A stretch of 64,000 nt of DNA from Methanospirillum lacunae (GTDB lineage: Archaea; Halobacteriota; Methanomicrobia; Methanomicrobiales; Methanospirillaceae). A program made the translations under genes and the position numbers. The first letter of the stretch is position 1, and each line of letters begins with the position of its first letter. Location of the stretch: positions 496,001 to 560,000 of the forward strand of contig NZ_QGMY01000008.1 in NCBI RefSeq assembly GCF_003173355.1, read 5' to 3'. This document shows, in pieces, positions 7,478-19,283 of this stretch. The notes below the pieces were generated by a model that did no database searches, was not told the origin of the DNA, and saw only the letters and a program-made list of their open reading frames with translations.

Positions 7478-8328
7478 GATTCATAGAGATCATGATGTCG
7501 TCTCAAAAAGTTTCTCACCTTTTCTGATTCAATCCATCCTTTATCCAGTTCATCAATTATTTTGTCTATTGCCAGAACCTGTTCGTATATCTGTTCTCTC
7601 CTCTGGGGCTCAATCTCTTCAGTCAGGATATCAATAATCGTCAGGGGATTGCGGATCTTATCATTGAGTGTGGCAAGAGTTCCCATATTCATATCGATCT
7701 GATCGATCGCCTCCCGCATTTTTTGTTCATTTTTCTTGCGGTCAGAGATGTCCCGGGCAATAGAGAGGAGTAACTTTCTTCCCCTGAATGTAAAGAGATG
7801 TGAACTTACCTCCATGGGTATTTCCTCGCCTGTTCTTGTTACATGGATCACATCGTACATCGCATGACCATTTTTGTAAACTTCAATTGCCTGTTCTCTG
7901 TATTTATTCCAGCAGCTTTCAGCAAGAATATCCCAGGGTGTCAGACAGAGCATTTCATCGTAGGTGTATCCAAGGAGTTTGTATGCTCTTCTGTTTACGT
8001 TGAGGAAAGGAACCGGAAACATATCTGGGTTAAAATCATACACATAAATGGCATCGTTTGCATTTTCAAAGACTGCACGAAACCTCTCTTCACTCTCTCT
8101 GAGAGCTTCTTCGACAGATCTTCGCTCCTGGACTTCTGCGAGCAGTTCTGCGTTTAGAGATTCAAGGTCCCGTGTTCGATCCTGAAGAGCCTGGTTTACG
8201 TTCTCAAGTTCGATTAGTCTTTCCTGCAACTCCGGAAAGTAGTTCTTCCTGACTGATGACTCGCCGAGCCCGATGATCTTCTGTCGTTGGTGTTTCCAAT
8301 CTGGAACTTTTTCAAAGTGCTCTGGCAT
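7474..8328 (-). CDS. PAS-domain sensor protein with degenerate histidine-kinase dimerisation helix
   Basis: From the ATG at 8328 the protein has 284 residues. It has an N-terminal GLGESSVRKNYFPELQERL segment, a coiled coil, a PAS domain (AVFENANDAIYVYDF to LLLSIARDISDRKKNE) and a C-terminal helix. That helix resembles a HisKA box (NDKIRNPLTII), but the phospho-accepting His is replaced by Asp, and there is no ATPase domain. It may bind a ligand and signal by protein contact rather than phosphotransfer. A longer reading starts at 8397, but I prefer 8328 because the MPEHFEK start leaves a short 17-base overlap with the dehydrogenase gene upstream, suggesting co-transcription. Confidence 0.75.
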   Translation of the reverse strand: MPEHFEKVPDWKHQRQKIIGLGESSVRKNYFPELQERLIELENVNQALQDRTRDLESLNAELLAEVQERRSVEEALRESEERFRAVFENANDAIYVYDFNPDMFPVPFLNVNRRAYKLLGYTYDEMLCLTPWDILAESCWNKYREQAIEVYKNGHAMYDVIHVTRTGEEIPMEVSSHLFTFRGRKLLLSIARDISDRKKNEQKMREAIDQIDMNMGTLATLNDKIRNPLTIIDILTEEIEPQRREQIYEQVLAIDKIIDELDKGWIESEKVRNFLRRHHDLYES

Positions 8329-9475
8329 AAATCTGTTCAATATCCCTGATATCCGGTTCTCTTGGGTTTGTTGCCAGACAAGGATCCCGGATGGCATTTC
8401 TGGCTAGGTCGGGGATACAATCCATAGAGATTCCAATCTGTCTGAACCGCTGAACAATCCCAACAGACTCCCTCAGTTTTGTTAGAGCCTGGATCAATTC
8501 TCCTTTACATTGCTCAGCATCTGAACATTGGTAATCAACTCCGAGAGCTCTTCCAATACTCAGGTACCGGTCCGGACAGGTTGAAAAGTTGAACTCTATT
8601 GCACTTTCTAACAAGAGAGCGTTACATTCTCCATGGGTGAGATCGTATTCTCCTCCAAGACTATGGGCCATGGCATGAATAATACCAAGACTTGCGTTGG
8701 AAAATGCCAGGCCAGCAAGTAGACTGCCGAGAAGGGTCTGATATCGGTAATGCAGGTTTTCAGGATTCTGGTATGCAAGTGGGAGGTATTTACTCAAAAT
8801 TCTGATAGATTCAAGGGCATGGATATCGGTCACTGGTGAACTGGCATTTGAGACATACGCTTCAATACTATGGACGATAGCATCCATCCCGGTATGGGCA
8901 GTAAGTCCCTTTGGGAGGGTTGTGAGTGGAATCGGATCGATTAACGATATGTCTGGGACAATTTTCTTGCTTATTATTGTTATTTTTACTTTTCTTCTGC
9001 TGTCATTGATGACCGCAAACTGTGAAACATCTGCTGCTGATCCTGCAGTTGTCGGAATACAAATGAGGGGTGGAGATGATACTGAAATATTGTCTACCCC
9101 CTCAAAATCGAGAATGTGGGAATGGTTGGTGACTACTATACCTATCCCTTTTGCACAATCGATCGGACTTCCTCCCCCAATAGCAACGAGAGCATCACAC
9201 CTGGATTCACGATAGAGGTCAGCCCCTTTCATCACCTCAAAGTCCCTGGGGTTGGGATTCACATCTGAAAATATTGTATACTGGATCCCTTCGGCAGTAA
9301 GACTTTCAAGAATCGAGGAGATCCATCCGGTTTTGAGCATCTGTTCATCGGTGACTACCATCACGTGGGATACGCTGTAATTTTTTGCGTATCTCCCCGC
9401 GAGTAATCTGGCATCTTCACCGATAATAAACTCAGGGGCTACAAACTTTCTCAGTTCATGCCTGATGTCGGTCAT
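8312..9475 (-). CDS. Iron-containing alcohol dehydrogenase (Fe-ADH family)
   Basis: The 387-residue protein has the NAD(P) loop GGGSPIDCAKG, the conserved PTTAGSAADVS segment and the metal-binding HAMAHSLGGEYDLTHGECNALLL with its spaced histidines. This is the normal length and order for iron-dependent alcohol dehydrogenases, which interconvert alcohols and aldehydes or ketones. The co-transcribed PAS gene downstream is an unusual partner and hints that a sensor is expressed with the enzyme. The physiological substrate cannot be read from the sequence. Confidence 0.9.
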   Translation of the reverse strand: MTDIRHELRKFVAPEFIIGEDARLLAGRYAKNYSVSHVMVVTDEQMLKTGWISSILESLTAEGIQYTIFSDVNPNPRDFEVMKGADLYRESRCDALVAIGGGSPIDCAKGIGIVVTNHSHILDFEGVDNISVSSPPLICIPTTAGSAADVSQFAVINDSRRKVKITIISKKIVPDISLIDPIPLTTLPKGLTAHTGMDAIVHSIEAYVSNASSPVTDIHALESIRILSKYLPLAYQNPENLHYRYQTLLGSLLAGLAFSNASLGIIHAMAHSLGGEYDLTHGECNALLLESAIEFNFSTCPDRYLSIGRALGVDYQCSDAEQCKGELIQALTKLRESVGIVQRFRQIGISMDCIPDLARNAIRDPCLATNPREPDIRDIEQIYARAL

Positions 9476-9585
9476 CCGGTATCCCCCTGTTATTTACCCA
9501 CACATTAGAAGATATGGTTGACTCACGACCTTATAAGTGCAACTCTTTAATCTGACATTTATACGGTATCCTTGGTTTTTTTTCA

Positions 9586-12500
9586 ATGAAATTATTAAAT
9601 CATCGTACATCAAAACAAACTCTTTCGGAACATTCTCAGGTGGAAAGGATGGATTATCAAAGTGACTCAAAAACAGCACTAATAGAAGATGGGCTATTAG
9701 TATCTGAATTCTCTCAGTTTCATGATCTGGTAAAAGCAGGAAAAGTAACCTCTGCTTCAGCAATTCCTCATTTTTCTGCTCTTGATCCTGATCAGGATGC
9801 TGCTCTCCATGCTCTTTTTACTGAACTTGTTGAACAAACAAACACACTAGAGCATCAGGTCGCAGAATATCGTTCGATTCTGGATGCGGTTCCATATCCT
9901 ATCCATGTCACAGACAATGACATGAAATGGACGTACATGAATAAGTCGTTTGAGAAACTTCTTATCGAGAACAAGGTTATTAAAAACCGCGAATCCGCGT
10001 ATGGTATGCCCTGCCGTACTGCGAATGCAAATATCTGTGGTTCTGAAGAATGTGGTATACACCAGCTCCAGACATCTGGTAAGAACGAAACCTACTTTGA
10101 CTGGCTGGGGGCATCCTGCAAGCAAACAACTGCTCCTGTCCTTGATGCAGATGGAAACAAGGTTGGGTATGTTGAAGTTGTCCACGATCTGACAGAGCAG
10201 ATGAATCAGATTGCATACTACCAGTCAATTCTGGATGCAGTTCCGTATCCGATTCATGTCACTGACATTGACATGAAGTGGACGTATCTGAATAAGTCGT
10301 TTGAAAAACTTCTTATTGAGAATAAGGTCATTAAAAACCGTGAATCCGCGTATGGTATGCCTTGCCGTACTGCAAATGCAAATATCTGCGGTTCTGAAGA
10401 ATGTGGTATACACCAGCTCCAAACATCTGGTAAGAACGAAACGTATTTTGACTGGCTTGGAGCATCCTGTAAGCAGACTTCAGCCCCGGTTCTTGATGCC
10501 AAGGGGAAGACTGTCGGGTATGTCGAGGTGGTTCACGATCTCACAGAACAGATGAACCAGATTGCCTACTATCAGTCAATTCTGGATGCAGTTCCTTATC
10601 CGATTCATGTCACTGACACAGATATGAAGTGGACGTATCTCAACAAGGCATTTGAAAAACTTCTTATTGAGAATAAGGTCATCAAAAATCGTGAATCCGC
10701 ATATGGTATGCCTTGCCGTACTGCAAATGCAAATATCTGCGGTTCTGAAGAATGTGGCATTCACCAGCTCCAGACAACCGGTAAAAACGAGACGTATTTT
10801 GACTGGCTGGGGGCATCCTGCAAGCAGACTACAGCGCCGGTGCTTGATGCCAAAGGTCAGACTGTCGGGTATGTTGAGGTGGTCCATGATCTGACAGAGC
10901 AGATAAATCAGATAGCATATTATCAGTCTATCCTTGATGCAGTCCCATATCCGATTCATGTCACTGATAATGATATGAAATGGACGTATCTGAATAAGTC
11001 GTTTGAAAAACTTCTTATCGAGAACAAAGTCATCAAAAACCGTGAATCTGCATATGGCATGCCTTGTCGCACTGCAAATGCCAACATCTGTGGCACAAAT
11101 GAATGTGGCATCAATCAGCTTTTGACGACAGGTAAGAATGAGACCTACTTTGACTGGCTTGGAGCGTCCTGTAAGCAGACAACGGCTCCGGTGCTTGATG
11201 CCAAAGGAAACCGCGTCGGGTTTGTTGAGACTGTTCAGGATCTCACTGAACAGATGAACCAGATAGCATATTATCAGTCGATTCTTGATGCTGTCCCGTA
11301 TCCTGTTCATGTCACTGATAATGACATGAAATGGAAGTATATGAACAGAGCATTTGAGAAGCTTCTCGTTGATAACAAGGAAATTAAAGACCGCGAATCT
11401 GCATATGGCCTGCCCTGTCGTACTGCGAATGCAAACATCTGTGGTACAAATGATTGTGGTATCCATAAACTTCGCACAACCGGCAACGATGAGACATATT
11501 TTGACTGGCATGGTGCCTCCTGTAAGCAGACAACTGCCCCTGTTCTCGATGCAAAAGGTGAAACTGTCGGCTATGTCGAGACTGTTCAGGATCTCAGTGA
11601 ACAGGTCAGCTTAATCGCGTTCCTCAAAACTGAAGTCTCCCGGGTTACCAAAAATCTGCAACATCTCTCTGCCGGAGAACTTAATCTGAATATGGAGATA
11701 ACGAAAGCAGATGCCTATACAGTCGAAGCTCACGAATCTTTTGTTACTATCGATGAAAATCTGTTGAATCTAAAAAATACTCTTGAAATGCTTGTATCTG
11801 ACATCCAGGCCCTTTCAGATGCTGCAGTTGCAGGGAAACTGGAGGTTCGTGCAGATACAGGTAAACATCTTGGGAACTTCAGGAAGATTGTTGAAGGTGT
11901 CAACTCTACTCTTGACAGTGTTATTGTTCCGGTGAAAGAGGCACTGCGGGTTTCAAAAGAGTACTCTGAATATAATTTCAAAGCCCGGATGGATCCAAAA
12001 CTCAATGTCGAAGGTGAATGGATCGAATTCAGGGATTCACTCAATAATATCGGATCCCAGATTGCCGGTGCAGTTGGGATGATTAATAATCAACTCCTTG
12101 ACCTGGCTTCAAATGCAGAAGAGGCAACGGCAAGTATTGAAGAGGTATCAGAGGGTGCCCAGCAGATTGCCAGGAATGCAGGGAGTGTCAGTTCAAACTC
12201 GGCTTCAGGTGAGGATGGGATTGTTCAGGTTCTCAAGGCAATGGAAGATCTCAACATTACAGTAGGGGAGGTCTCACGCCGGGCAGAACAGGTTTCAACC
12301 ACGGCAACGCTTGCAAACGATTTCTCTAAAAAAGGAGTTGAACTTGCTGAGCAGTCAGAAGGCGCAATGCAGGAGATAAAGCGTTCTTCAGAAGAGGTCG
12401 GTCAGATTGTTACGGAAATTAACAGACAGATGGAAGAGATCGGAAAGATTGTACGGTTGATATCAGATATTGCAAACCAGACCAATCTCCTTGCCTTGAA

Positions 12501-12996
12501 TGCGGCAATCGAGGCTGCACGGGCTGGAGAAGCAGGTCGCGGGTTCGCTGTTGTAGCAGCGGAAGTCAAGTCACTAGCCCAGGATTCACGCCAGTCTGCA
12601 GAAAATATTGCTGATATGATCTCAACACTCCAGGATAAGGCCCGCAAAGCTAACGATGCTATGGGCAAGGCAGGGAGTGCTGTTGAGCAGGGAAGTGCTT
12701 CACTAGCTCAGACACTTGGTTCATTTAATCAGATCGTCGTATCTATAGACGAGATTACCAGAAATGCAACAGATGTAGCCTCAGCTTCAGAGGAACAGGC
12801 CGCTTCAGTTGAAGAAGTTACAGCAAGTATTCATGAGGTATCAGGGCTTATCCAGAGTACGACTAAAGATGCAGGGGACGCTGCCGCTGCAACAGAGGAG
12901 GCTTCAGCATCGATTGAACAGATCAGTAAAATTGTCAGCAATGTAAGTGGCATTGCAGATTCTGTATCGCATGAAATGTCAAAGTTCAAGGTTTGA
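9586..12996 (+). CDS. Soluble methyl-accepting chemotaxis protein with five tandem Cys-PAS domains
   Basis: The 1136-residue protein has no membrane segment. Residues about 95-679 hold five PAS repeats of 117 residues. Each contains AVPYP(I/V)HVTD, a three-cysteine stretch [11 protein letters not shown] followed by (E/D)CGI, and a fourth cysteine in GASCKQT. A HAMP-like connector follows (about 690-810), then the coiled-coil signalling domain with the hairpin [20 protein letters not shown] and methylatable Glu/Gln-rich helices. It should signal to CheA/CheW from the cytosol. The conserved cysteines suggest binding of a metal, heme or redox ligand, but no CXXCH heme motif is present. Repeats 1-4 are most alike; repeat 5 has drifted. 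Confidence 0.9.
9868..11622 (+). repeat. Five tandem 351-bp repeats (in-frame, PAS-coding)
   Basis: Units begin at 9868, 10219, 10570, 10921 and 11272, all exactly 351 bases apart, so each is 117 codons. The first four are nearly identical at the protein level. Their DNA differs mainly at third codon positions, indicating expansion followed by selection on protein sequence. The fifth differs at more residues (for example DNKEIKDRE in place of ENKVIKNRE). The exact period makes unit loss or gain by recombination easy. Confidence 0.9.
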
Positions 12997-15898: not shown

Positions 15899-16783
15899 AT
15901 GATTCGCAAAGATAATTCTCGTCAGTTTTTATTTCTATTCTGTTTCACGATTCTCCTGATATTACCCTCTGCATCAGCTCAAGGTATTAACCTCACACCG
16001 GCTGGACAACTGGACTGGAGGATTGATCATGCTGTTGTTGTGGTTGATGATCTCAACAAATCTATAGATGAATTCAGAAATGCAGGTTATAGTGTTACAT
16101 CAGGCGGTGAGTTTCCCGGAGCAGACACTCACAATGCACTGATCCCATTCGCTGATGGCAGTTATATTGAGTTATTTGCCCCGATGGATTTGTCCTTAAG
16201 TTATCAGATGAAACAGCTCATCGCCAGTGGCGAATTTGATAAAGCAATGAATGACCTGAATCCATTGGATAAGAGGTTTATGCTCCATCTGGCAGAAGGT
16301 CCTGGTCTCAGGGATTTTGCTCTCTCTGCTCCCGGAATCAATCTCACTGATGAGTCAACCAGTGCTACATTGAGTGGCTTGAATTTTTCCAGCCCTGTTG
16401 CCATGTCCCGGACAGGAGCGAGAGGAAATGTCTCCTATCACGTTATAGTTTCAGAATTTGAAAATCAGATGGCTTTTCCATTCCTCATCACTGACGACAC
16501 TCCCCGGTCGTACCGGGTGCAAGAAGTCAATGCCAGTTATCATCCAAATGGAGCTACAGGAATCGGATCAATCTCCGTAGCAGCAGCCGATCCCTCATCA
16601 GTCCTGCCGTTTTATGACTCGCTTCTTTCAGGTGTTTCAAAAAATCAGACACAAAATGAGACCGTGTATGCACTCAATGGTTCATCTCTTTCAATACTTC
16701 AGAATTCAGACAAGTCATTAAAGGATGGTCCGGCCAGCATTATGATTAAGGATAGTGATGGAAAGATGATTATTATACCTTGA
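15899..16783 (+). CDS. Secreted VOC (glyoxalase-like) protein
   Basis: The 294-residue protein has a signal peptide (hydrophobic stretch to about residue 28, ending SASA). A glyoxalase-like domain follows, starting [20 protein letters not shown] and containing [27 protein letters not shown]. The two expected beta-alpha-beta-beta-beta modules are visible. VOC proteins bind a metal and act on small molecules; an exported one is unusual and may bind rather than convert a ligand. A TTG three bases earlier is an alternative start. The end overlaps the convergent chemoreceptor gene by 11 bases. Confidence 0.7.
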
Positions 16784-19283
16784 ATCTTCCCATCTCCAGA
16801 TTAATCCGGTCTGTTGCCTGTGCTACAATTGAGACTGACCTCGCAATCTGATCAAGTGCAGCAGAGGTCTCTTCTGTTGCAGCAGCCGAAGAAACTGCTT
16901 CTTCAGCGGTTTTTTTAACCTGATCTTCCACCTCATTTATATTGGCTGTAATCTCCTGGACTACAGCGGCCTGTTCTTCAGCAGCTGCTGCAACTGTAGA
17001 CACGTGTTCTGATATCTGACCCACATGGGTTATGATCTGAGAAAATACATCAAGCGTTTCATTGACAGCCTTGTTTCCTGATACTACTTCGGTTGAGGAT
17101 CTAAGCATTGCATTTGAGGCATCAGATGACTGACGCTGCAATGTTGTAATCATCGCTGTTATTTTCTCTGCTGATTGTTGTGATTCTATAGCAAGAGATT
17201 TTACCTCGTCAGCCACGACTGAAAAGCCTCTTCCTGCATCACCAGCTCGTGCTGCTTCTATTGCTGCATTCAGGGCAAGAAGATTTGTCTGGTCTGCAAT
17301 GTCACTAATAAGTCGCACGATCTGACCAATCTGTTCCATCTGCCCTGACATCTCACTCATCGTTCTGTTACTTTCTTCAATTGATGAGGTTATGTTTCTC
17401 ATCTTCTCTTCTGCCTGGTGTGCCAGCGTTGATCCCTGTGTTGATAAATCATCGGTTGTTCGGGTGATTGAAGCGACCGTGTCTGTCATTTCGGCAACGT
17501 TTGTGATGTTTACAGACAGATCATCCATTGCATGAAGAACCTGGCTTACACCTTCCAGGCTTGAATCCGCTAGTGCACTAACTTCACCTGAACTGGATGC
17601 CAATCTTGCAGAACTCGCAGATACTTCTTCGAGTGAAGCGTTTGTCTCTTCAATACTTCCTACCACCGACTCTATCTGTTCTTTTACTCCGCTGACTGCG
17701 CCCGAACTCTGCTCTCCGATCTGGTTCATTGCATCGCGAAGAGTTATGAATGACCCTGATACCGGAATTGCAGGATCAAACCGGGCAGTATAATCACCCG
17801 AGGCGTAGATTTTCGCAAGTGCCATTGTTCCATTTACAGGCTTGATGACAGCATCAAGAGTTTCATTAATTCCAGAGACGATCTTCTGGTATTCTCCCTG
17901 GAATTGCATGTGATCTCCTCTCACCTGCAAATTTCCTTCTGTGGCCTGATGTGCAAGATTGGTTACAATATCAACCATTTTTTTAATGGTATCACGCATC
18001 TGGATCATCGATTTTCCGAGAAGATCATGATCAGAAGAAACCGGGATATCTACAGACAGATCACCAGCTGCAATTCCATCAGCAGCGAGAGCTTTTCCCT
18101 GTAAACTTGAAAGCATACGTCTGAATGCATCTGCAAGTCTTCCAATCTCATCACTGCGTTCGATGATGATTTCATCTCCCAGTTCTCCCTCTGCAATAAT
18201 ATTGGCATGTGAAGTGATCTGCTCAATAGGCCGTGCAATCCCCTTTGCTGCAAAAAATAAAAGGAGAAGGCCGATAACAGTAAAAAAACCACCTATGAGC
18301 AGTAAAATCAGCGTATTCATTCTTGCTTCTGCAGTTGCGATATCAACCGGCACCGTAAGAATAACTGACCATGGTTTTTCTGAATTTCCTATCTGCACCG
18401 GTGTATATGCAGTAATAGCACCCTGTTTTTCTGAAACATCATTTCTCCCTTTTTGTATATCCGAAAGGATCGATTGAGCCTGTCCTGAAAAGGGGAGTGA
18501 AGCGTTACCCAGGGCTTTTCCCACTGTATCTGGATACCCAGTAGCGCCGGTTACAATCCCATCGTTTGAGATGAAATAAATTTTTGCTGTATTTTCGTAG
18601 GCATGCACACTATCTGCAAGCCCCTGAATATTTTCAAGCGGCACATCAACCCCGGTAATTCCCACAAATTTTCCATCCACGAGAATAGGCACTACTACAG
18701 ATGACAGCAGGATCTTCCTACCCTGAATCTCCCATGGGTAGGGCTCGGTGACATATTCTTTTAGAGATTTTTTAGGAATCTGGTAGAACTCACTCCCTTC
18801 TTCTCCTTCATGAAAACTATACACTTTGTCAAGTTTTGGCTTTCCTGCAGTATCCCTTGAGTAATATGCCATGAACTGCCCGGTTTCATCAGTTCCTTCT
18901 TTTCCCTTATAGTTTGAATCCTGCCCATCCCAGACATTAGGTTCAAGGACAATGTAAATCCCGTTATACTGGACATACTGATTCATCAGCCCATAGATCA
19001 TGGCCTGGATATCTTCACGTGAAGGTTTTTTCCCGGTTTCAAAAGATCCTTTTATTGATCCTGCAAGAGTTCTATCTACCTCAAATGCACGGTTAATTTC
19101 ATCTTTGAGAATGATTGCCTGATCAGATGAGAGAGATTTTACCTGAGTAAATGAGCCCTGTACAGAAATCGTATACTGGGACATACTTGCATACCCGATA
19201 ATCGCACAGGATACGATGACAAGGGCTATTGCCCCAAAGAAAAGAATCTCATGTCTGATTGATTTGAAGTGTAGTTGTCTCAT
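16773..19283 (-). CDS. Membrane methyl-accepting chemotaxis protein with Cache sensor
   Basis: The 836-residue receptor has a membrane segment at about residues 12-33. An extracytoplasmic dCache-like domain follows to about 325, with [18 protein letters not shown] and [17 protein letters not shown] typical of that fold. A second membrane segment ([20 protein letters not shown]) and a HAMP domain come next. A second HAMP-like region and the signalling coiled coil follow, with the hairpin [20 protein letters not shown]. It ends LEMGRFKV, like the soluble receptor's MSKFKV. It probably senses small organic ligands outside the cell and controls the archaellum through CheA. Confidence 0.9.

Follow-up and report, generated by a model that had tools for sequence, protein, structure and literature searches.

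Five tandem cysteine-bearing PAS units in a soluble chemoreceptor of Methanospirillum lacunae, a candidate redox sensor

A soluble methyl-accepting chemotaxis protein (MCP) is encoded in the window, a stretch of 64,000 nt from Methanospirillum lacunae. It carries five tandem PAS units, and in each of them the cysteines are spaced C-x7-C-x4-C-x21-C. PAS-MCP receptors, tandem PAS domains and poly-HAMP arrays are already known kinds. The protein is a real, modestly novel variant of the PAS-MCP type, built on a cysteine-PAS subclass (C-x7-C-x4-C) for which no description was found in the part of the literature that was searched. Tentatively, we consider this receptor to be a cytoplasmic redox or oxidant sensor in which every unit carries one metal centre, a [4Fe-4S] cluster being the likeliest.

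The coordinates of the gene and its parts are listed in Table 1. As called, the open reading frame codes for 1136 aa, and Pfam assigns PAS_4 (4.6e-37, five stretches), HAMP_2 (3.4e-10) and MCPsignal (3.4e-41) to the product. The units belong to the PAS superfamily by the PAS_4 profile match and the PAS alpha/beta fold, and the protein scores 141.4 bits for MCPsignal (curated cut-off 34.6). The region flanking HAMP_2 (11611-12170) is poly-HAMP-like by eye. No membrane span was found in the product, where the 19-residue Kyte-Doolittle mean peaks at 0.88. A sequence-only reading of this DNA had proposed a multi-PAS chemoreceptor devoid of membrane spans, and the Pfam domains and the hydropathy profile bear this out. 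Translation probably starts at the ATG at 9649 and not at 9586, because the syntenic orthologue has the same GGTGG...ATGGATTAT start, and its own upstream ATG leads into a TAG. The genes adjoining the array receptor carry no information on its stimulus, neither in Methanospirillum nor in the bacterial neighbourhoods. A second MCP, of the membrane type (dCache/PDC sensor, HAMP, MCP), is encoded 3.8 kb downstream (16773-19283, minus strand).

Table 1. Features of the five-PAS receptor gene (positions are those of the window)
Feature	Position	Strand	Basis
Soluble methyl-accepting chemotaxis protein: five Cys-PAS units, HAMP region, MCP signalling domain	9586..12996	+	ORF, Pfam, hydropathy
Probable true start: GGTGG Shine-Dalgarno-like element and ATG at 9649	9639..9651	+	Conserved in orthologue L056
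Cys-PAS unit 1 (C143, C151, C156, C178)	9874..10224	+	Register and cysteine count
Cys-PAS unit 2 (C260, C268, C273, C295)	10225..10575	+	Register and cysteine count
Cys-PAS unit 3 (C377, C385, C390, C412); sister of unit 2, lineage-specific duplicate	10576..10926	+	Unit trees, dS
Cys-PAS unit 4 (C494, C502, C507, C529)	10927..11277	+	Register and cysteine count
Cys-PAS unit 5 (C611, C619, C624, C646); most divergent	11278..11610	+	Register and cysteine count
HAMP_2 domain	11863..12057	+	Pfam at aa 760-824
MCP signalling domain (CheA/CheW-contacting hairpin)	12343..12846	+	Pfam MCPsignal at aa 920-1087

Each unit starts with the motif SILDAVPYP, and the five starts are spaced by 351 bp four times, without indels, just as the sequence-only reading had counted them. 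Tandem Repeats Finder reports a period of 351 at 9877-11604 (4.9 copies, 84% matches, 0% indels, score 2045). The product has 20 cysteines, four per PAS unit and none elsewhere, while a typical MCP from the same genome has about two. The units had been described as near-identical. This holds for the protein (76-95% identity) but less so for the DNA (75-90%), the differences being mostly synonymous (unit-unit dS 0.5-3.7, dN 0.02-0.14). Units 2 and 3 are 90% identical at the nucleotide level (dS 0.54). The longest exact run common to two units is only 56 nt, the gene lies within a contig of 560,696 bases, and the orthologue shows the array independently, so that, judged from the assembled sequences, the assembler has probably neither collapsed nor expanded the array. 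An assembly artefact was accordingly rejected as an explanation, with units that are 10-25% apart in bases and a four-unit orthologue in a single-contig genome.

That orthologue (L056) is found in the sister genome G010 (3.93 Mb), and it shares the neighbours of the array gene: a flippase, a PAS protein, an iron-type alcohol dehydrogenase and an S9 peptidase. One genome per species was sampled. In the unit trees, unit 4 of the window pairs with unit 3 of L056, and unit 5 with unit 4. The first units of both genes pair in the protein and codon trees, this being unresolved in the nucleotide tree. Units 2 and 3 of the window are sisters, and unit 2 of L056 is their counterpart by position and, with low support, in the protein tree. 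Because dS is 0.54 between units 2 and 3, compared to about 1.3 between orthologous units, the trees and distances indicate that one unit (2 or 3) was gained in the window lineage after its split from G010. For the orthologous units, dN/dS is 0.015-0.030; it is 0.051 for the signalling half and 0.055 for the neighbouring alcohol dehydrogenase. A pseudogene is ruled out by the values of 0.015-0.03. Because unit-unit dS reaches 0.5-3.7 with mostly synonymous differences, the copies are, by this measure, old, and every unit is kept under strong purifying selection. Recent expansion or ongoing homogenisation as the main process was rejected, given these dS values and the positional orthology of the units. 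The evidence for gene conversion over short tracts is weak (units 2 and 4, p 0.0016, the best of ten pairs and uncorrected). It had also been supposed that recombination between units may change the sensitivity of the receptor. The copy number has indeed changed (five versus four), but a single gain is seen where the synonymous distance has reached about 1.3, and positional orthology is preserved in the other units. To judge from these comparisons, copy number changes through recombination, but slowly, and rapid tuning is not supported.

Such uniform copies had been called rare, which does not hold in the source genome (3.74 Mb, 25 contigs). It has 45 MCP genes, of which about 20 encode no strongly hydrophobic segment, and all 45 were surveyed for internal repeats by a diagonal scan. 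Near-identical tandem modules, with a best pair of at least 94% protein identity, occur in six of the 45, the array gene included, and in most of these six the units differ mainly at synonymous sites. Three of the remaining five are poly-HAMP receptors, one has 230-aa PAS pairs, and one has five 133-aa units. The poly-HAMP receptors (L102:2-6184, L103:30-5000 and L104:78-5441, all on contig C2) are 1656-2060 aa long and have about 15, 11 and 13 tandem HAMP_2 units of 91 aa, respectively; many adjacent units are 90-99% identical as protein and 78-94% as DNA. An orthologue-like poly-HAMP receptor has 2099 aa in the source genome and 1755 aa in G010. In the MCP with repeated PAS pairs (L105:347-4549), identity reaches 100% over 60 residues. 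The 133-aa modules (L106:689-4696) belong to no clear Pfam family, and their number varies across six Methanospirillum genomes (five in the source genome, four in G010, three in G004 and in G011, two in JF-1 and in G003). From the six tandem-module MCPs and the variation of copy number across species we conclude that receptor lengthening through tandem module duplication is a habit of the genus, the cysteine-PAS array being one instance.

The unit has relatives in Acetobacterium, several Clostridium, Pseudobacteroides, Cellulosilyticum, Geomonas and a betaproteobacterial MAG. Nearly all of the named bacterial hosts live as obligate anaerobes, which is in keeping with the proposed redox or metal-centre sensor. 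Among archaea, relatives occur in nine of 38 genera of the source order and in nine of 132 genera of the phylum sample. The recognized outputs are nearly all MCPs. The search for a three-cysteine PAS in other receptors, which the sequence-only reading had called for, was thus rewarded with C-x7-C-x4-C units in other methanogen, acetogen, clostridial and Geomonas receptors. In another family of the phylum, one Cys-PAS match (G378:C16:8564-8920) contains a single in-frame TAG, possibly subject to pyrrolysine read-through.

Four conserved cysteines per unit had been noted, and this applies within the array; in the wider family, only three are conserved. C57, C65 and C70 (unit numbering) are invariant in 75 of 75 aligned units (methanogens, Acetobacterium, Clostridium, Pseudobacteroides, Geomonas and the betaproteobacterial MAG), and none of these 75 has His, Asp or Ser in place of a core cysteine. 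The search seeds partly held cysteine contexts, which favours members that keep their cysteines; profile searches agreed. Further cysteines are present in 60 units, and the other 15 have the core three only, so that a fourth cysteine ligand is, on these counts, not obligatory. Positions 53, 88 and 92 account for 62 of the 70 further cysteines. Not one of the 75 units combines C53 with C88 or C92 (Fisher p 8e-7; p 2e-4 for C53 versus C88 in the Acetobacterium group alone), but these values are uncorrected for relatedness, and they are weakened by Acetobacterium making up nearly half of the relatives. On the unit tree, C53 changed four times and the hairpin cysteines five times. A distant sister PAS class carries C-x8-C-x4-C-x-C in the same loop, with the fourth cysteine built in. 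It is represented by L055 (aa 354-465), L079 (aa 21-143), L099 and L017 (ORF 8313-11186), at times shares a receptor with the three-cysteine PAS and is a candidate for an Fe-S site of its own. Since the core three are invariant, the fourth alternates among positions and the distant class has its fourth built in, the pattern of three fixed ligands and one exchangeable ligand fits a metal site. Two Methanospirillum paralogues outside the 75 units (L068:2486-4666 and L069:2617-4824) have lost C65 and C70 together with one stretch of nine residues. They retain the rest of the PAS domain despite this deletion and are natural negative controls.

The AlphaFold model of one unit (mean pLDDT 95.2) has PAS topology, and its best Foldseek matches are PAS structures (top E 2.8e-8). 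The C-x7-C-x4-C motif is placed in a loop before helix F, and the fourth cysteine in the following beta-hairpin. In PAS topology, positions 88-92 are the turn between strands G and H, which to judge from the secondary structure of the model should adjoin the start of helix F, just after C70. In the model of two units (mean pLDDT 92.9), an unbroken helix (117-131) bridges them, and their relative placement is less certain (pTM 0.67). A PDB search with a single unit returned no match. The nearest solved relatives by profile, both weak, are PAS chains of Aer2 (E 0.002 and 0.006), and no homologue of solved structure from the PDB and profile searches shows such a cysteine site.

The proposal of a multi-site redox, metal or ligand sensor is upheld insofar as the cysteine pattern, three invariant and a fourth that moves, agrees with five repeats of a metal or redox site. 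From this pattern we infer the cofactor, the stimulus, the direction of the response and the benefit of five sites, as follows. The five PAS units, joined head to tail by continuous helices, would form a sensory rod that signals via HAMP and the MCP signalling tip to CheA and the archaellum motor. The cysteines of each unit would hold one oxidant- or redox-sensitive metal centre, giving about ten per receptor dimer. Were the cluster to be lost or its oxidation state to change, the PAS domain would be altered, and the linker helix would relay this, so that the strictly anaerobic cell may leave oxidizing zones. With the unit repeated, each signalling tip would be served by several sites, which may make a response to a weak stimulus more likely.

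A thiol redox switch without metal is an unlikely alternative. Here, disulfides would form and break, or thiols of the CoM type would react, and thereby alter the PAS domain. Three invariant cysteines within 14 residues and an optional fourth are compatible with this, and methanogens are known to use thiol/disulfide control (MsvR and RdmS, PMC7278568), but the report of redox-dependent autophosphorylation of RdmS was later revised (PMC11784639). Moreover, disulfides need pairs and not an invariant triplet whose two later members vanished together with the loop.

A structural or regulatory zinc, or another single metal, might stiffen the loop while the PAS pocket senses an unrelated small molecule. 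Zinc sites with three cysteines and a variable fourth ligand are common in general, and the unit model shows a long loop with little secondary structure. Zinc is nevertheless unlikely: the lack of any His, Asp or Ser replacement of the core cysteines is unusual for zinc over such divergence, and the obligately anaerobic life of nearly all named hosts also speaks against it.

That the units bind heme or another ligand as in Aer2, with the cysteine loop shaping the pocket, appears improbable. The weak profile matches and the PAS-HAMP-MCP layout of Aer2 (PMC3570549) point in this direction, and the cysteine loop aligns with the heme-ligand region of Aer2. The histidine and the distal tryptophan, which we take to be the heme ligand and a conserved pocket residue of the Aer2 PAS domain, are however both unconserved in the aligned unit columns. 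The array receptor also reaches only 136.6 bits in the NCBIfam test for Aer2-type equivalogs (cut-off 1200). It is highly improbable that unit number is a matter of geometry, setting receptor length or array packing while most units have no sensing role of their own. In favour of this, the two-unit model has an unbroken joining helix, and HAMP modules of no obvious sensor role lengthen other receptors of the genome, but each unit keeps its four cysteines at the low dN/dS given above, where pure spacers would be expected to drift.

Returning to the metal-centre sensor, a broader proposal can be made, which we regard as possible but doubtful. The C-x7-C-x4-C PAS may represent an undescribed class of metal-cluster sensors of anaerobes. 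Three cysteines would then bind a [4Fe-4S] cluster, its fourth iron being open or taken by an interchangeable ligand, and Methanospirillum may tune receptor gain in the course of evolution through the addition of units, a route that it also takes with HAMP and other modules. Should the units contain Fe-S clusters, methanogens and acetogens would offer a redox chemoreceptor open to direct test. The taxis of these organisms has hardly been studied: movement towards acetate is all that is cited for M. hungatei, and the signals of its 27 receptors are unknown (PMC4704411). The species series of two to five units is a natural experiment that sets extra sensor copies against receptor gain, and the moving fourth cysteine offers a clean handle on cluster ligation.

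Several known systems resemble the array receptor in part. Aer2 from Pseudomonas aeruginosa is also soluble, with cytoplasmic PAS sensing, a HAMP relay and an MCP tip, but it has one heme-b PAS between HAMP arrays, whereas the array receptor has five N-terminal cysteine-PAS units. The units are not LOV domains, which have a single photoactive cysteine in a conserved flavin-binding motif; the units lack the LOV motif, and their three invariant cysteines are part of another motif. The [4Fe-4S] PAS of NreB from Staphylococcus carnosus also has four cysteines and a proposed role in oxygen or redox sensing (PMC9918477). NreB differs in having only one PAS domain, as part of a histidine kinase, and a cysteine spacing of C-x2-C-x11-C-x2-C, in contrast to the C-x7-C-x4-C-x21-C found throughout the array. 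A sensory [FeFe]-hydrogenase was considered as a parallel and rejected, as its C-terminal [4Fe-4S] cluster is located outside the PAS domain (PMC13104023). The Cys-PAS MCPs of Acetobacterium, Clostridium, Geomonas and other Methanomicrobiales are of the same PAS subclass, with C-x7-C-x4-C and MCP output, but they have one or two units, usually apart. One Methanospirillum protein has three units, two of them adjacent, and among the proteins seen, more than two adjacent units occur only in the array gene (five) and its orthologue (four). Poly-HAMP chains, known as long tandem arrays from soluble receptors (PMC3570549), are alike in having one signalling module in long tandem, as in the three of the source genome with about 11-15 units. 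HAMP, however, is a relay, while the array receptor repeats a PAS sensor with a cysteine site of its own.
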